A DNA stretch of 64,000 nt from a virus. The notes below the pieces were generated by a model that was not told the DNA's origin, ran no database searches, and was given only the letters and a program-made list of their open reading frames with translations. The position numbers were made by a program, and so were the translations under genes. The stretch is taken from positions 1-64,000 of the IMG/VR virus record IMGVR_UViG_3300050343_000255, one strand, 5' to 3'. Below, in pieces: positions 25,416 through 63,288 of the stretch. Position 1 is the first letter of the stretch; each line of letters starts with the position of its first letter.

Positions 25416-26495
25416 ATGGCTTCAACTGTTATGCAGCGCTCCGGCGCTAAGAGTAACTGGGAAGAGTTTTGTAAGTGGGTTACGAGTACCAACAACCGTC
25501 TGTATGTCGGTTGGTTTGGCATCCTCATGATCCCTACGCTCCTCGCAGCGACTATTTGTTTTGTTATCGCCTTCGTTGGCGCACCACCTGTAGATATTGA
25601 TGGCATTCGTGAACCAGTTGCTGGATCGCTCCTATATGGAAACAACATTGTATCGGGAGCAGTCGTCCCGTCTAGCAACGCAATCGGACTCCACTTCTAC
25701 CCAATCTGGGAAGCAGCAACCCTCGACGAATGGCTCTACAACGGAGGACCATTCCAACTCGTTGTCTTCCACTTCCTTATCGGTATCTACGCTTACATGG
25801 GACGAGAATGGGAACTTAGCTACCGGCTAGGTATGCGCCCATGGATTTTCGTAGCATATAGCGCACCTGTAGCAGCAGCGTCTGCCGTGTTTCTTGTCTA
25901 TCCCTTTGGACAAGGATCCTTCTCTGACGCAATGCCTTTGGGCATCTCCGGTACATTCAACTATATGTTGGTGTTCCAGGCAGAGCATAATATCCTCATG
26001 CATCCGTTCCACATGCTTGGTGTGGCTGGTGTCTTCGGCGGAAGTTTATTTTCTGCTATGCACGGTTCTCTTGTTACATCATCTCTCGTGCGTGAAACCA
26101 CGGAGCAAGTGTCACAGAACTATGGCTACAAGTTTGGTCAAGAAGAAGAGACCTACAACATCGTGGCAGCACATGGCTACTTCGGTCGCTTGATCTTCCA
26201 ATATGCTTCCTTCAACAATTCCCGTTCACTGCACTTCTTTTTAGCTGCGTGGCCGGTAGTTGGTATTTGGTTCACCGCTCTTGGCGTGTCAACCATGGCC
26301 TTCAACCTCAATGGCTTCAACTTCAACCAGTCAATTGTTCACGGCGGTCACGTCGTTAACACCTGGGCAGACATTCTGAACCGTGCAGGTCTTGGTCTTG
26401 AAGTAATGCATGAAAGGAACGCACACAATTTCCCATTGGATCTTGCGTCCGCTTCTACATCCCAAGTGGCTTTGACCGCTCCAAGTATCGGTTGA
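25416..26495 (+). CDS. psbA: Photosystem II D1 protein
   Basis: 359 residues, full length. The redox tyrosine lies in LVYPFGQG (Tyr162, equal to Tyr161 in standard numbering because of one extra N-terminal residue). [12 protein letters not shown] puts Glu at the position equal to 130, the high-light D1 form. HPFHMLGV supplies a chlorophyll His. The C-terminal [14 protein letters not shown] carries the processing site. D1 turns over fastest in light, and phage copies keep photosynthesis going during infection. No intron interrupts it. Its 3' end overlaps an antisense nuclease gene. Confidence 0.99.
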
Positions 26496-45342: not shown

Positions 45343-45909
45343 GTGGATATGCCGAGCCCTAAAGGTGACCCGACTTACATCAAAAATAAAGAACGATTCT
45401 ACATGAACGTTGCAAAGGCAATTAGCCAAGCATCAACACATCCAAAATGTCCAGGTGGATGTATTATTGTTCGTGATAGAGAGATTATTGGAGATGGTAG
45501 AAGCATACTGACGGATAGCATGGTTGAAATCGATTGCATTTCATATGCAGTCGCAGCTGCAGCCAAGGCAGGAACTCCTGCCATTGGTGGTGTGATCTAT
45601 ACAACAAGATATCCATTTTCAACTTCTGTGTTTCAAGCACACATGATGGGTATCAAAAAGATTGTTCTACTTGCCCATGACTGGGAACCGTATTACAAAG
45701 AAGAGTTCAGACGTTCTGCACGTCTAGCTCGTGAATTGAACATTGCTATTGAGCCAATGTTTGAAGACGAAGACCCAAGATTTACTAAGAATTCAAATGA
45801 CAGAGATATTGACGAAACTCTCTTCCCGGAAGCAAACCCGTTTGCGCCAGATGAATATGATCCAAACAATGCAACACATACCTTCGATGAAAACACAACT
45901 CCTATTTGA
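45343..45909 (+). CDS. Deaminase-fold protein lacking zinc ligands
   Basis: 188 residues. The fold follows dCMP/cytidine deaminases: CPGGCIIVRDREIIGDGRS, then VEIDCISYAVAAAAKAG and GGVIYTTRYPFSTS, then GIKKIVLL. In active enzymes these sites read HAE and PCxxC. Here they read IDC and PFSTS, so the zinc site is gone. It may be a structural or allosteric relative, or have changed chemistry. The C-terminus is acidic and disordered. The 3' end overlaps the exonuclease gene. Confidence 0.7.
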   Translation: MDMPSPKGDPTYIKNKERFYMNVAKAISQASTHPKCPGGCIIVRDREIIGDGRSILTDSMVEIDCISYAVAAAAKAGTPAIGGVIYTTRYPFSTSVFQAHMMGIKKIVLLAHDWEPYYKEEFRRSARLARELNIAIEPMFEDEDPRFTKNSNDRDIDETLFPEANPFAPDEYDPNNATHTFDENTTPI

Positions 45910-46411
45910 CCTTGAATCCACAGGCTTACTTCGACGTGGCTCCACAATTCACTGCATGGTTATGCGTGATGCTGTTGATAGCAGCACTCATGTCTTTGAT
46001 CACAAGCCTGAACGTGCATTGATTCAAGGCATCAAACAACTAGAAGATGCAGATGTAATCATCGGGCACAACATTATTGGATACGATATCCCATTGCTCA
46101 AAGAGCAGTATCCAGACTTTGAACCTAAGGGTCAAGCAATGGATACCCTTGTGCTTAGTCGTTTGTTCTATCCACACATCATGGATAGAGATCACGAACG
46201 TCGTCCACTTGGCATGCCTCAACGTTTGTATGGCAGGCACTCACTGGAAGCGTGGGGTTACAGGTTGAAGTGCTTCAAAGGTGACTTTGGTAAGCATGAT
46301 GGCAACTGGGCTGTCTATACACCTGAAATGCTGGATTACTGCATCCAAGACACCGAGGTCACCCTCAAACTATGGCAACTTATGCAACGGAGAATGAACG
46401 ACTATGCCTGA
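45887..46411 (+). CDS. DNA polymerase 3'-5' exonuclease, separate subunit
   Basis: 174 residues from ATG 45887. DEDD exonuclease motifs: FDLESTGLL (Exo I), IIGHNIIGYDIPLL (Exo II) and LDYCIQDTEVT (Exo III). It corresponds to the N-terminal domain of T7-type PolA and ends before the polymerase, which starts 237 bases on. One 85-residue gene lies between. Confidence 0.92.
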   Translation: MKTQLLFDLESTGLLRRGSTIHCMVMRDAVDSSTHVFDHKPERALIQGIKQLEDADVIIGHNIIGYDIPLLKEQYPDFEPKGQAMDTLVLSRLFYPHIMDRDHERRPLGMPQRLYGRHSLEAWGYRLKCFKGDFGKHDGNWAVYTPEMLDYCIQDTEVTLKLWQLMQRRMNDYA

Positions 46412-46661
46412 TAAAAATGCACCACTAACTTCTGAAGAAATTACAGAAGCAGCAGATATCTTTTTTCCGCTCTTTAATATTGTCGATGAGCGTATGCCTG
46501 AAACAGCATCTACAGAAGATACGTTGAAAGTTATGGAAAACATTGCTAAGTTGGCACAGAAGGAACGAATTAAAAAACGAGAAGAAGCTGTAAAGCTTAA
46601 GTTCGGATTTAATAAAACTACTGATTCAGATGAGGATACTGTCAAAGATGAAAGTGATTGA
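46404..46661 (+). CDS. Small acidic protein between the two polymerase parts
   Basis: 85 residues, charged helix (SEEITEAADIFFPLFNIV ... AQKERIKKREEAVKLK). Overlaps both the exonuclease and polymerase genes. It could bridge the two polymerase parts or be unrelated; unknown. Confidence 0.6.
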   Translation: MPDKNAPLTSEEITEAADIFFPLFNIVDERMPETASTEDTLKVMENIAKLAQKERIKKREEAVKLKFGFNKTTDSDEDTVKDESD

Positions 46662-47955
46662 TTCTGTCAAACTTGAAATGCGTATGGCCAGCATTATGGC
46701 CCAACAGGAAGCAAGCGGATTCCGTTTCGATCTAACCGCAGCTGAGCGAGTTCGTGGTGAGTTTGAACAAGAGATGTCTGATCTACAAGGTCAAATTTCT
46801 AAACGTTTTATTTATGTTCCTGGCAAGGTCTACACACCTAAGCGTTCAAATAAAACCAAGGGTTTTTTCGCTGGTGCTCCGATGACAAAGCTGCTCGACT
46901 TCAATGCAACGAGCCGTCAGCATATTGCGTGGGCTCTACAGAACTTCAGCAAAGCCAGGTTTATCAAGGTTACTGAGACCGGTAAGCCTAAAGTTGATGA
47001 AGCAACTCTGTCTGAGCTGCGAGATACCGCACTGCAGCAAGGGAATACCAAGCTGCATGAGGAGTGTGAGATGTTTATCCGCCTGCTGACTTTGCAGAAG
47101 TGGATGGGACAGTTGTCGGAAGGATCTAACTCATGGTTCAACACCATTGAGGATGACGGATGCATCCACCACAGCTGTTCACTGGCAACGATCAGCGGTA
47201 GAAATGCGCATCGGGGTCCCAACTTGGGGCAGGTCGTAAGTGCACCATGGGCACGTCAGCTATTCATTCCACACCCTGGCATGGTCATGGTGGGGGCTGA
47301 CTTAGAAGGACTCGAACTTCGGGCGCTTGGGCACTACCTAGCCGTCTTCGATGAGGGCGCTTTTGCTGATGTTGTGGTCAACGGTGACATTCATACGCAG
47401 AATGCAGAGCGAGTTGGATGTACCAGATCTGAGGTCAAGTCGCTGGTCTATGGGTTCATTTATGGGGCTGGCGATGTGAAGCTGGGTCATATTTTGCATC
47501 CCGAACTTAGTGACGCTCAGAAGAAATCTCTTGGCACAGAACTACGACGTAAGTTTCTTGATGCGATCCCTGGTCTAGAACCCCTGGTTGATGCAGTCAA
47601 AGCAAAAGTTCGTAGTGCTGGTCAGCTCAAAGCACTAGATGGTCGTCCAATCTTCTGCCGAGCAGAACACAGTTCACTCAACTTCCTGCTTCAGTCATGT
47701 GGTGCGATTTTGAGTAAGCGGTGGTGTGTCATCGGTCAAGACTTACTTGATCAAGCAGGGCTTGCCTATGACAACGACTACACCCGTTGTGCCTACGTCC
47801 ATGATGAAGTTCAACTGTCTGTTGTACCAGCAGAGGTAGACCGTGTCAAAGAGCTCCTAGTGGCTGCTGCTCCTCAAGCAGGGCGTTACTACAACTTCCG
47901 TGTTCCGATTACAGCTGCCGCTGATCACGGAGACAACTGGGCAGCTACCCACTAA
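46648..47955 (+). CDS. polA: DNA polymerase A, polymerase domain
   Basis: 435 residues from ATG 46648. Motif A is VGADLEGLELRALGHYL (catalytic Asp). Motif B is RSEVKSLVYGFIYGAG: the residue equal to E. coli Phe762 is Tyr. Motif C is AYVHDEVQLSV (His-Asp-Glu). Together with the separate exonuclease gene it forms a split T7-like replicative polymerase. The N-terminal frame overlaps the 85-residue gene. Confidence 0.96.
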   Translation: MKVIDSVKLEMRMASIMAQQEASGFRFDLTAAERVRGEFEQEMSDLQGQISKRFIYVPGKVYTPKRSNKTKGFFAGAPMTKLLDFNATSRQHIAWALQNFSKARFIKVTETGKPKVDEATLSELRDTALQQGNTKLHEECEMFIRLLTLQKWMGQLSEGSNSWFNTIEDDGCIHHSCSLATISGRNAHRGPNLGQVVSAPWARQLFIPHPGMVMVGADLEGLELRALGHYLAVFDEGAFADVVVNGDIHTQNAERVGCTRSEVKSLVYGFIYGAGDVKLGHILHPELSDAQKKSLGTELRRKFLDAIPGLEPLVDAVKAKVRSAGQLKALDGRPIFCRAEHSSLNFLLQSCGAILSKRWCVIGQDLLDQAGLAYDNDYTRCAYVHDEVQLSVVPAEVDRVKELLVAAAPQAGRYYNFRVPITAAADHGDNWAATH

Positions 47956-49030: not shown

Positions 49031-49065
49031 TACGTTATTGCCAATAAACAGCTAGAATATAAATA

Positions 49066-49121
49066 CGTTCATCCCCTAACATAAGGGGACGCAAGTACCT
49101 CAGGAATGGAGGGAAGGAACG
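49066..49121 (+). ncRNA. Glutamine riboswitch (glnA/Downstream-peptide type)
   Basis: P1 CGTTC pairs with GAACG at the ends. P2 is CCCC-TAACATAA-GGGG. The conserved joining core GACGCAAGTA follows P2, then P3 CCTC-AGGAATG-GAGG, then GGAAGGAACG closes P1. This matches the Downstream-peptide/glnA RNA family that binds L-glutamine in cyanobacteria and cyanophages. One core base differs from the usual GACGGAAGTA. It precedes a short gene of the typical downstream-peptide kind. Confidence 0.88.
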
Positions 49122-49149
49122 GGAAACTACACCTCACTATGGAGTTTCC
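49122..49149 (+). promoter_or_regulatory. Expression-platform hairpin
   Basis: GGAAACT (49122-49128) pairs with AGTTTCC (49143-49149), ending one base before the ATG at 49151, so the start could be masked or exposed depending on ligand binding. Confidence 0.6.
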
Positions 49150-49150
49150 A

Positions 49151-49336
49151 ATGACCCAATTACAAGCTCGTGCTATCGAAAATGCACGTCGTGATTTTAA
49201 TCGCGCACGCAATGAACTGCGTACCCATCGTCTTTCTGAGACTGCTTACCGTGGAGTTCCCACTATCACTGAGCGTAAGCAAGCATCTGAAGTCCATGGT
49301 AATTTTGTTTATCGCGGACGAACCTACACTAAATAA
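49151..49336 (+). CDS. Downstream-peptide-type protein
   Basis: 61 residues from ATG 49151. ARRDFNRARNELRTHRLSET is helical and basic; the end repeats YRG motifs (AYRGVPTITERK and FVYRGRTY), as in short cyanobacterial proteins of the YRG/DUF4278 kind that follow this riboswitch. Function is unclear; the riboswitch suggests a link to nitrogen status. A terminator follows at once, so this is a single-gene unit. Confidence 0.75.
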   Translation: MTQLQARAIENARRDFNRARNELRTHRLSETAYRGVPTITERKQASEVHGNFVYRGRTYTK

Positions 49337-49358
49337 TTACTATCTAATTAAACATTAG

Positions 49359-49383
49359 CCCCCTTAACAGGGGGTCTTTTTTT
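49359..49383 (+). terminator. Rho-independent terminator
   Basis: CCCCC-TTAACA-GGGGG followed by TCTTTTTTT, ending the riboswitch-peptide unit. Confidence 0.85.
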
Positions 49384-49428: not shown

Positions 49429-50097
49429 ATGCGTAAAGCGGGTGATCTAATTAATGAATTTTTGCGTGAAGGTAAGCTAAAAGATAATCGCTCAGATCCT
49501 ATTGGGAGTGGCGCTTATGGTGTTGTATATGAATCCGATACACCTGGTAATGTAATGAAGCAAGGTGTTACTGGTGGATTTGATAATGACTTTGTTCAAG
49601 AAGCTAACCTGCAGTCAATAGCAGCTGATATGGGCTTTGCACCACGTGTTGCAGGCGTTGAGCGCTTTACTGGTGGCATTGGTGATCGAATCGAAATGGA
49701 AGATGTACGTAGGAATTTTGAACCTGTCCAAGCTATCCAAGGCTTGTATCCAGCAGATCCAATGTTTAATGTACGTTCATCACAACAGATAGGTCAACTA
49801 GCACTAAAAGGTGTGCGTTTAGATGATCGCAAAGCAGATAATATGATGCAAAATAAAATGACAGGCAGACCAATGCAACTAGACTTTGGTATTGCTGATC
49901 GTGTAACAGCAGAAGATCAAGTAATGGCCTTAGCGGATGCTACAGAAGATGGCTTCCGTGCAGCAGGTATTGGTGATATAGGTGATATTTTTAGAGATAC
50001 TGTTTATGATTTGATTAATGGTGGTCAAATTGATGAAGCTATGGATATAGCCAAGCAAGGCTTTAGTCGTTTGCAAAAGATCAAGCAAGTAGCTTAA
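49429..50097 (+). CDS. Protein kinase-like protein
   Basis: 222 residues. The glycine-rich loop is IGSGAYGVVYES (Gly26, Gly28, Gly31), with Lys44 in VMKQG as the ATP-binding Lys and Glu58 in VQEANLQSIA as its helix-C partner. The catalytic loop is LDDRKADNMM (Asp133, Lys135, Asn138, HRD-type) and the metal-binding DFG is LDFGIADR (Asp152). So all core catalytic residues of a minimal Ser/Thr-type kinase are present, though the fold is short. A TACAATAG element suggests late expression, perhaps in the virion. Confidence 0.78.
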   Translation: MRKAGDLINEFLREGKLKDNRSDPIGSGAYGVVYESDTPGNVMKQGVTGGFDNDFVQEANLQSIAADMGFAPRVAGVERFTGGIGDRIEMEDVRRNFEPVQAIQGLYPADPMFNVRSSQQIGQLALKGVRLDDRKADNMMQNKMTGRPMQLDFGIADRVTAEDQVMALADATEDGFRAAGIGDIGDIFRDTVYDLINGGQIDEAMDIAKQGFSRLQKIKQVA

Positions 50098-62572: not shown

Positions 62573-63288
62573 GAGTAATTAAGGGTAGCGACGGCTTGAA
62601 TAGAGGTAGAGCTACGTACGATGTAATCGATACGATCTACCTGACTAGCTCCGGTTGAAAGTGTGGGTGCAGTTCCGCCTGCCCAATCCCAATAGGAGCC
62701 CCAACTTGCTGTACGACTTCCTGTTCCATCCTGTGTAATAAAGATTGAACCTGATTGTCCAGCTGTGATATTTGTTGGGTTAGCAATCGTCCGATTGCCT
62801 GCCAGAACTACAACGTAGTTATTTGAATCATTTAGATCTGGGGTAATTGTTGCTCCGTCTGTAAGAGTTGTAATCTCTGCACGTTGTCCTGCAGTCCAAG
62901 TATTTGCAACTGATAGGGATACACCACCAGCAGGGCTACTCCAGGAGAGTACGCCACTACCATTAGTAGTTAGGAACTGACTATTAGTACCTGTGTTATT
63001 CGGGAGAGTTAGTGTATAACTTGCCGCCGCACTATGTGGGGGACCTTTAATCTTTACACCGTGTGAGTTGTTTTCACAATTTAGTGTAATTTGACCGGAG
63101 CCATTTGTTGCATCGCCTTTCGCTACAATCTCTCCATCAAAGTTGACGTCTCCAGTAAATGTAGCTCCTGCAAGCAGTGCGTAGTTACTCAAGCTTCCAC
63201 CTGCTGTAATAGCAGATACCGTCAGTTCTACATCACTTCCACTGTTGTCATAAACTAAGGTATCAACTTTAATTTTCCCGTAAGCCAT
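62569..63288 (-). CDS. Tail-fibre-like protein
   Basis: 239 residues, Ser/Thr/Gly-rich and beta-structured: ATFTGDVNFDGEIVAKGD resembles the fibre repeat found in many phage fibres, and YTLTLPNNTGTNSQFLTTNG is another common fibre segment. Stop overlaps the large fibre start by four bases. TACAATAG 31 bases upstream. Confidence 0.78.
   Translation of the reverse strand: MAYGKIKVDTLVYDNSGSDVELTVSAITAGGSLSNYALLAGATFTGDVNFDGEIVAKGDATNGSGQITLNCENNSHGVKIKGPPHSAAASYTLTLPNNTGTNSQFLTTNGSGVLSWSSPAGGVSLSVANTWTAGQRAEITTLTDGATITPDLNDSNNYVVVLAGNRTIANPTNITAGQSGSIFITQDGTGSRTASWGSYWDWAGGTAPTLSTGASQVDRIDYIVRSSTSIQAVATLNYS

Follow-up and report, generated by a model that had tools for sequence, protein, structure and literature searches.

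A marine cyanophage carries a glutamine-class riboswitch directly upstream of the gene for a 61-amino-acid (aa) protein with YRG motifs. Its aptamer stems and a hairpin over the Shine-Dalgarno sequence (SD) covary strongly among relatives, and the ORF is a real coding sequence under purifying selection. The proposal of a preliminary description, that a phage riboswitch of this class drives a YRG peptide, is therefore well supported by the Rfam match (RF01739), the covariation, and the coding selection. The window analyzed is the whole stretch of 64,000 nucleotides, taken from an IMG/VR record of 106,357 bases, and its features are as follows.

25416–26495, plus strand: psbA (photosystem II D1, phrog_182; E 3e-195).
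49053–49058, plus strand: −10 promoter box TAGAAT, with a predicted transcription start at about 49065, the 5' edge of the aptamer.
49064–49125, plus strand: type-1 glutamine riboswitch aptamer with stems P1, P2, and P3 (RF01739, covariation).
49122–49149, plus strand: hairpin over the SD GGAG (49141–49144), abutting P1 (covariation).
49151–49336, plus strand: 61-aa small protein, DUF4278-like, phrog_545 (dN/dS, profile match, AlphaFold).
49358–49382, plus strand: intrinsic terminator, a 7-bp stem (49358–49375) with five GC pairs, then a T-run.

The virus is a marine, psbA-carrying, S-EIV1-related cyanophage, as assigned from psbA and from a terminase whose nearest relative is that of Synechococcus phage S-EIV1 (55%); the nearest relatives of its polymerase are cyanopodoviruses. 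The S-EIV1 genome gave no match to the type-1 or type-2 riboswitch class. In 18 related loci, the riboswitch unit lies between the polymerase and an HNH cluster, as far as the contigs reach, and its direct neighbors vary. In the window, the T7-type DNA polymerase (45743–47955, plus strand) seems to be divided among three ORFs, an exonuclease-like one, a small one, and one of 441 aa for the polymerase, a layout also present in several relatives. At 49429–50097 (plus strand), a 222-aa protein displays kinase-like motifs by eye, GSGAYGVVYE close to the N-terminus and DDRKADNMMQN...DFGIAD further on; Pfam and PHROGs gave no match to it. The only four contigs from one scan of genome contigs, binned as Blastopirellula, Rhodobacteraceae, Euryarchaeota, and TMED88 metagenome-assembled genomes (MAGs), resemble cyanophage contigs of the lineage of the window virus, and their MAG assignment is probably binning contamination.

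A covariance scan for a glutamine riboswitch, proposed earlier as a check, matched RF01739 at 49064–49125 with 45.9 bits (cut-off 35, E 7.7e-07, model positions 1–53 of 53), and this was the sole match in the 64-kb window when all Rfam families were scanned. All of the elements named in the preliminary description are present at 49066–49121: P1 (CGTTC 49066–49070/GAACG 49117–49121), P2 (TCCCCT 49072–49077/AGGGGA 49084–49089, which includes the CCCC/GGGG stem), the core GACGCAAGTA (49088–49097), P3 (CCTC 49098–49101/GAGG 49109–49112), and GGAAGGAACG, whose 3' end is 49121. The class assignment has to be corrected, as the Downstream-peptide class (RF01704, type 2) gave no match at the gathering cut-off in the window; the Rfam class is type 1 (RF01739), which the three-stem layout fits. 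One relative (L006) reached 24.3 bits against RF01704 (cut-off 33). The window and each of the 14 relatives read have the core CGCAAGTA, which differs from the type-1 consensus CGGAAGUA at one position, a C for G (CGCA versus CGGA of type 1). The earlier naming is understandable, because this core letter and the GGAACGGG run resemble type 2. Of 200 dinucleotide shuffles, 198 fold less well than the 92-nt leader (z = −2.49). A second R1 match in the window (62690–62751, minus strand; 16.5 bits, E 0.46) was treated as noise.

The peptide has relatives on 14 IMG/VR contigs (62–100% identity), and RF01739 was found upstream of the gene in all 14. In the aligned clade (11 sequences), 98.3% of the cells pair and 9 of the 22 pairs show two-sided changes, a level reached by none of 500 shuffles, and the pairing signal was lost when the partner was slid by one base. 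Among 61 distinct sequences, two-sided changes were seen in 16 of the 22 pairs, with a score of 0.402 versus 0.130 after shuffling (0/500 shuffles as high), although this alignment was fitted to the covariance model and so favors it. Furthermore, relatives L012 and L013 encode an identical peptide behind rewritten aptamers; in L013, P1 is changed to CGTTG/CAACG, P2 and P3 are also changed, and the stems still pair. The single departure from the Rfam consensus in the core is the sole support found for regarding the match as a degenerate or chance relic without function. We assign next to no probability to such a relic: it is refuted by the covariation, in which two-sided changes keep every stem while the letters change, and it fits poorly with the same peptide being preceded by rewritten aptamers.

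IMG/VR was scanned for aptamers with the core CGCAAGTA (C type) or CGGAAGTA (G type), and the counts given for the two types are among the matches listed. A TAnnnT sequence ends 4–11 nt 5' of the aptamer in 56 of the 63 C-type viral leaders, against a shuffle expectation of 17 and at most 28; with this spacing, the transcription start would fall at the aptamer edge. G-type aptamers showed no −10 enrichment, and the promoter claim is therefore limited to the C type. No match to a −35 box was found upstream of TAGAAT. The strong terminator expected to close the unit was located at 49358–49375 with its T-run. The idea of a closed single-gene unit held for the window and for relatives L001–L003 and L009–L014 and failed in L004 and L006–L008, where the stop codon apparently overlaps the ATG of another small ORF (TAATG); in other words, the unit is not always single-gene.

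The hairpin described as ending one base before the start codon was confirmed at 49122–49149, with the ATG at 49151. Its arms are GGAAACT (49122–49128) and AGTTTCC (49143–49149), and the 3' arm lies over the bases that separate GGAG from the start codon. Among the 61 distinct sequences, both sides change in six of its seven pairs, and a stem of at least 6 bp is present in 35 of 43 C-type leaders among the matches listed. The arms vary between viruses with complementarity kept (GGAAAC/GTTTCC, GGATTAT/GTAATCC, and GGAATATTC/GAGTATTCC); in G-type leaders, the corresponding arms are CACCT/GGGTG. Because the SD hairpin is conserved and covarying, control very probably acts at the translation level. 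In ViennaRNA, P1 and the SD hairpin form together with near-certainty and with no mutually exclusive alternative, and the direction of the switch is therefore not readable from folding. An ON direction is preferred, because the tested cellular switches of both classes, type 1 (gifB) and type 2 (Prochlorococcus), are activated by glutamine (PMC6316151). In the opposite arrangement, glutamine would stabilize P1, which would stack on the SD hairpin and shut translation, so that the peptide would be made at low glutamine. The two helices do abut without a linker (bases 49121 and 49122 are adjacent) and fold together, and the hairpin itself is conserved and covarying, which speaks for such an OFF switch. 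Nevertheless, both tested cellular classes work the other way (PMC6316151), and in T4-like relatives GAACG-GAG-CGTTC could form a hairpin that is exclusive with P1, which would imply ON, so that we consider the OFF arrangement unlikely.

The 61-aa ORF shows dN/dS values mostly of 0.06–0.18, and third-position changes dominate. Its product consists of a basic helix (residues 3–29) followed by two YRG motifs, and the YRG part (residues 27–61) matched the phrog_545 profile at positions 21–55 of 55 (E 9.4e-11). With a loose limit, tblastn returned 375 phage records, mostly Synechococcus phages. AlphaFold (35 sequences; pLDDT 83.6, pTM 0.41) placed the helix at residues 3–29 and a strand pair at 51–60 around the second YRG. 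DUF4278 (PF14105) scored 15.5 bits, under the Pfam cut-off of 25.3; this domain was matched weakly by 35 of 41 family members (best E 1.1e-4), and the best viral fold match was a phage DUF4278 protein (prob 0.99, E 0.055). The peptide is thus a weak but consistent DUF4278 relative. Sequence searches of the PDB gave nothing usable (FtsB, E 0.056; a stopper protein, 0.3), and a search of solved folds gave no match below E 6. Translation is not taken to begin at the in-frame ATG further upstream, at 49139 (MEFPMTQ...), because this codon lacks an SD of its own, is absent from L008, and owes its conservation to the hairpin.

Among the matches listed, a YRG protein is encoded downstream of 52 of the 53 C-type aptamers that have an SD and ATG. 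For the G-type aptamers listed, an ORF of 28–100 aa follows in 88 of 97 cases, and YRG is present in 24 of the 97; shuffled downstream sequences contained almost no such ORFs. The aptamer-plus-YRG cassette also occurs in T4-like cyanophages and on many marine viral contigs. Since related pairs of switch and peptide are frequent among marine cyanophages, it is probable that these viruses sense the nitrogen status of their host. These results indicate that glutamine-class riboswitches are widespread in marine cyanophages and are coupled there to a dedicated family of small proteins; the domain that follows the same kind of switch in cyanobacteria is a relative of this family. As a separate observation, viral CGGAAGTA aptamers at loci L156–L275, sometimes in tandem, stand before diverse short basic peptides of 30–65 aa, and the G-type downstream peptides share no common family (e.g., MTYRPFSWKRF... 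and MKTKNNWQLVLIKQQ...).

In cyanobacteria, the genes found behind type-1 and type-2 glutamine riboswitches mostly encode DUF4278, a domain that also makes up the N-terminal part of the glutamine synthetase (GS) inactivating factor IF17 (PMC6316151). Judged from its sequence context, the phage peptide would stand in the same regulatory position as these host DUF4278 proteins. In our model, the phage type-1 riboswitch, transcribed from its own promoter, would bind L-glutamine, as its family membership suggests, and glutamine would raise translation of the 61-aa peptide through the SD hairpin (ON, by analogy with the cellular classes); the peptide would then bind a host nitrogen-assimilation protein, and the virus would adjust host nitrogen flow when glutamine is plentiful. 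We regard this model as a whole, with glutamine as the ligand, as reasonably probable. That the target is a host nitrogen-assimilation protein, most likely GS or a PII-type regulator, is a tentative proposal by analogy; an effect on GS is indirectly suggested by the DUF4278-like C-terminus together with the published riboswitch–DUF4278–IF17 link (PMC6316151). Whether viruses sense and steer the nitrogen status of the host thereby becomes a question that one RNA and one 61-aa peptide suffice to test directly.

The peptide could alternatively have no role in nitrogen metabolism, with the riboswitch timing a general phage takeover protein according to the metabolic state of the host. Timing roles for such riboswitches were proposed in the Melnitz phage study (PMC9004378), and viral G-type glutamine aptamers precede many unrelated basic peptides of 30–65 aa. 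On the other hand, C-type aptamers occur almost exclusively with the YRG family (52/53 among the matches listed), and DUF4278 is the main partner in host genomes too (PMC6316151). We therefore argue for a dedicated role of the peptide, and the purely temporal role is a possibility to which we give the lesser weight of a serious alternative.

The claim of a shared regulatory position stops short of calling the peptide a GS inactivating factor, because its likeness to IF7 failed statistics. The size and basic character are similar, and MTQLQARA looks like MSTQQQARA of IF7 by eye, which speaks for a true inactivating factor of the IF7 type. However, 93 of 2000 shuffles scored as high with the long-form profile and 461 of 2000 with all, hhalign gave a probability of 0.6% with IF7, the IF7 model NF052599 had no match in six phage records, and R20, the would-be partner of an IF7 arginine, is not conserved. 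The sole check on the IF7 query sequence was that it matched NF052599 strongly, and IF7 itself had no solved relative in the PDB copy searched. Homology of the phage helix to IF7 was rejected on the shuffles and hhalign, and a true IF7-type factor is highly improbable.

Many T4-like cyanophages, as well as S-TIM5, have a nested form of the cassette. The leader reads CGTTCA-P2-CGCAAGTAAGTCGCGGAACGGAG-CGTTCATCCC-ATG...gp197...GGGACGCAAACGACTGAAGGAACGG, then gp198 (the YRG gene); that is, the second aptamer of a tandem is split by gp197, a complete gene of 50–65 aa lying in the P2 loop. Isolates with this arrangement (L018–L034) include NC_020486.1 (154290–154620) and NC_008296.2 (gp197–gp198), and 180 distinct nested units were found among viral contigs. 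The ATG lies at nt 4–6 of the insert, inside the P2 5' arm, in 177 of the 180 units, and the inner reading frame ends on a stop codon within the aptamer core in 161. The C-terminus of the inner gene is usually DAND or DAHD (GAC GCA AAC GAC TGA encodes DAND and the stop), and the YRG gene follows the nested aptamer in every unit with enough sequence. The P2 arms on either side of the gene covary; they had a mean pairing of 5.96, compared with at most 4.58 in 2000 permutations of the arms, and where the 5' arm is not TCCC (69 units), a complementary 3' arm was present in 67; related phages share ancestry, so that the permutation figures do not represent independent events. Where no gene is inserted, P2 is a short hairpin (e.g., TCCCTTCGGGGA), and GGAT takes the place of the SD GGAG of most gene-bearing units; this link is not strict, because 18 gene-bearing units also have GGAT. 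The slot is occupied by two families that are separate in PHROGs, phrog_504 and phrog_13397.

From its letters, GAACG-GAG-CGTTC could form a hairpin over that SD that is exclusive with P1, from which a simple ON logic would follow. We consider it likely that the window unit is the simple form and that the T4-like cassette became a nested switch, with tandem aptamers of which the second is split by a gene, and with aptamer folding and inner-gene translation mutually exclusive; this exclusion would follow from the position of the start codon in the P2 stem and the stop codon in the core. Such a form, with a gene as the loop of a ligand-binding fold, would be an unusual riboswitch build, and no description of it was found in the papers searched. 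At L455, L459, and L460, the first tandem aptamer also seems to be split by a coding sequence, so that these loci may have a gene threaded through each of the two aptamers.

Riboswitch–DUF4278 units are already known in cyanobacteria (PMC6316151), and phage glutamine riboswitches are already described in three reports (PMC9004378, PMC9964418, and PMC9602691). The type-1 riboswitch (RF01739, glnA leader; Synechocystis gifB, PMC6316151) has the same three-stem aptamer, precedes a DUF4278-type small protein, and likely shares translation-level control with the window unit. The latter differs in being phage-borne, in having C rather than G in the CGGAAGTA core, in a GGAACGGG run as in type 2, and, compared with gifB, in a gene without the IF7-like part of IF17. 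With the type-2 riboswitch of marine picocyanobacteria (RF01704), it shares the CGCA core letters, the GGAACGGG run, and a short downstream DUF4278 peptide, whereas it has no RF01704 match and has the three-stem layout of type 1. A phage-encoded glutamine aptamer is common to the Melnitz and Mosig phages (PMC9004378) and the S-CREM1 glnA RNA (PMC9964418); unlike the window aptamer, that of Melnitz is linked to a tmRNA gene region, and the available text of these two reports contains no YRG peptide. The gp198 family of T4-like cyanophages (phrog_545) has the same YRG C-terminal half and glutamine-type aptamers upstream, but is shorter than the window peptide, has another N-terminal helix (MNTLxxIKKQI), and often has a leader nested with gp197. 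The likeness to IF7 and IF17 lies in small size, basic character, and nitrogen-linked regulation; DUF4278 is N-terminal in IF17, whereas the YRG part is C-terminal in the phage peptide, so that the domain order differs. As far as the literature shows, the new points are the lineage related to S-EIV1, the link of the C-type core to the YRG family, the covarying SD hairpin of such leaders, and the gene-in-aptamer form, and Klahn 2018 may state part of this.
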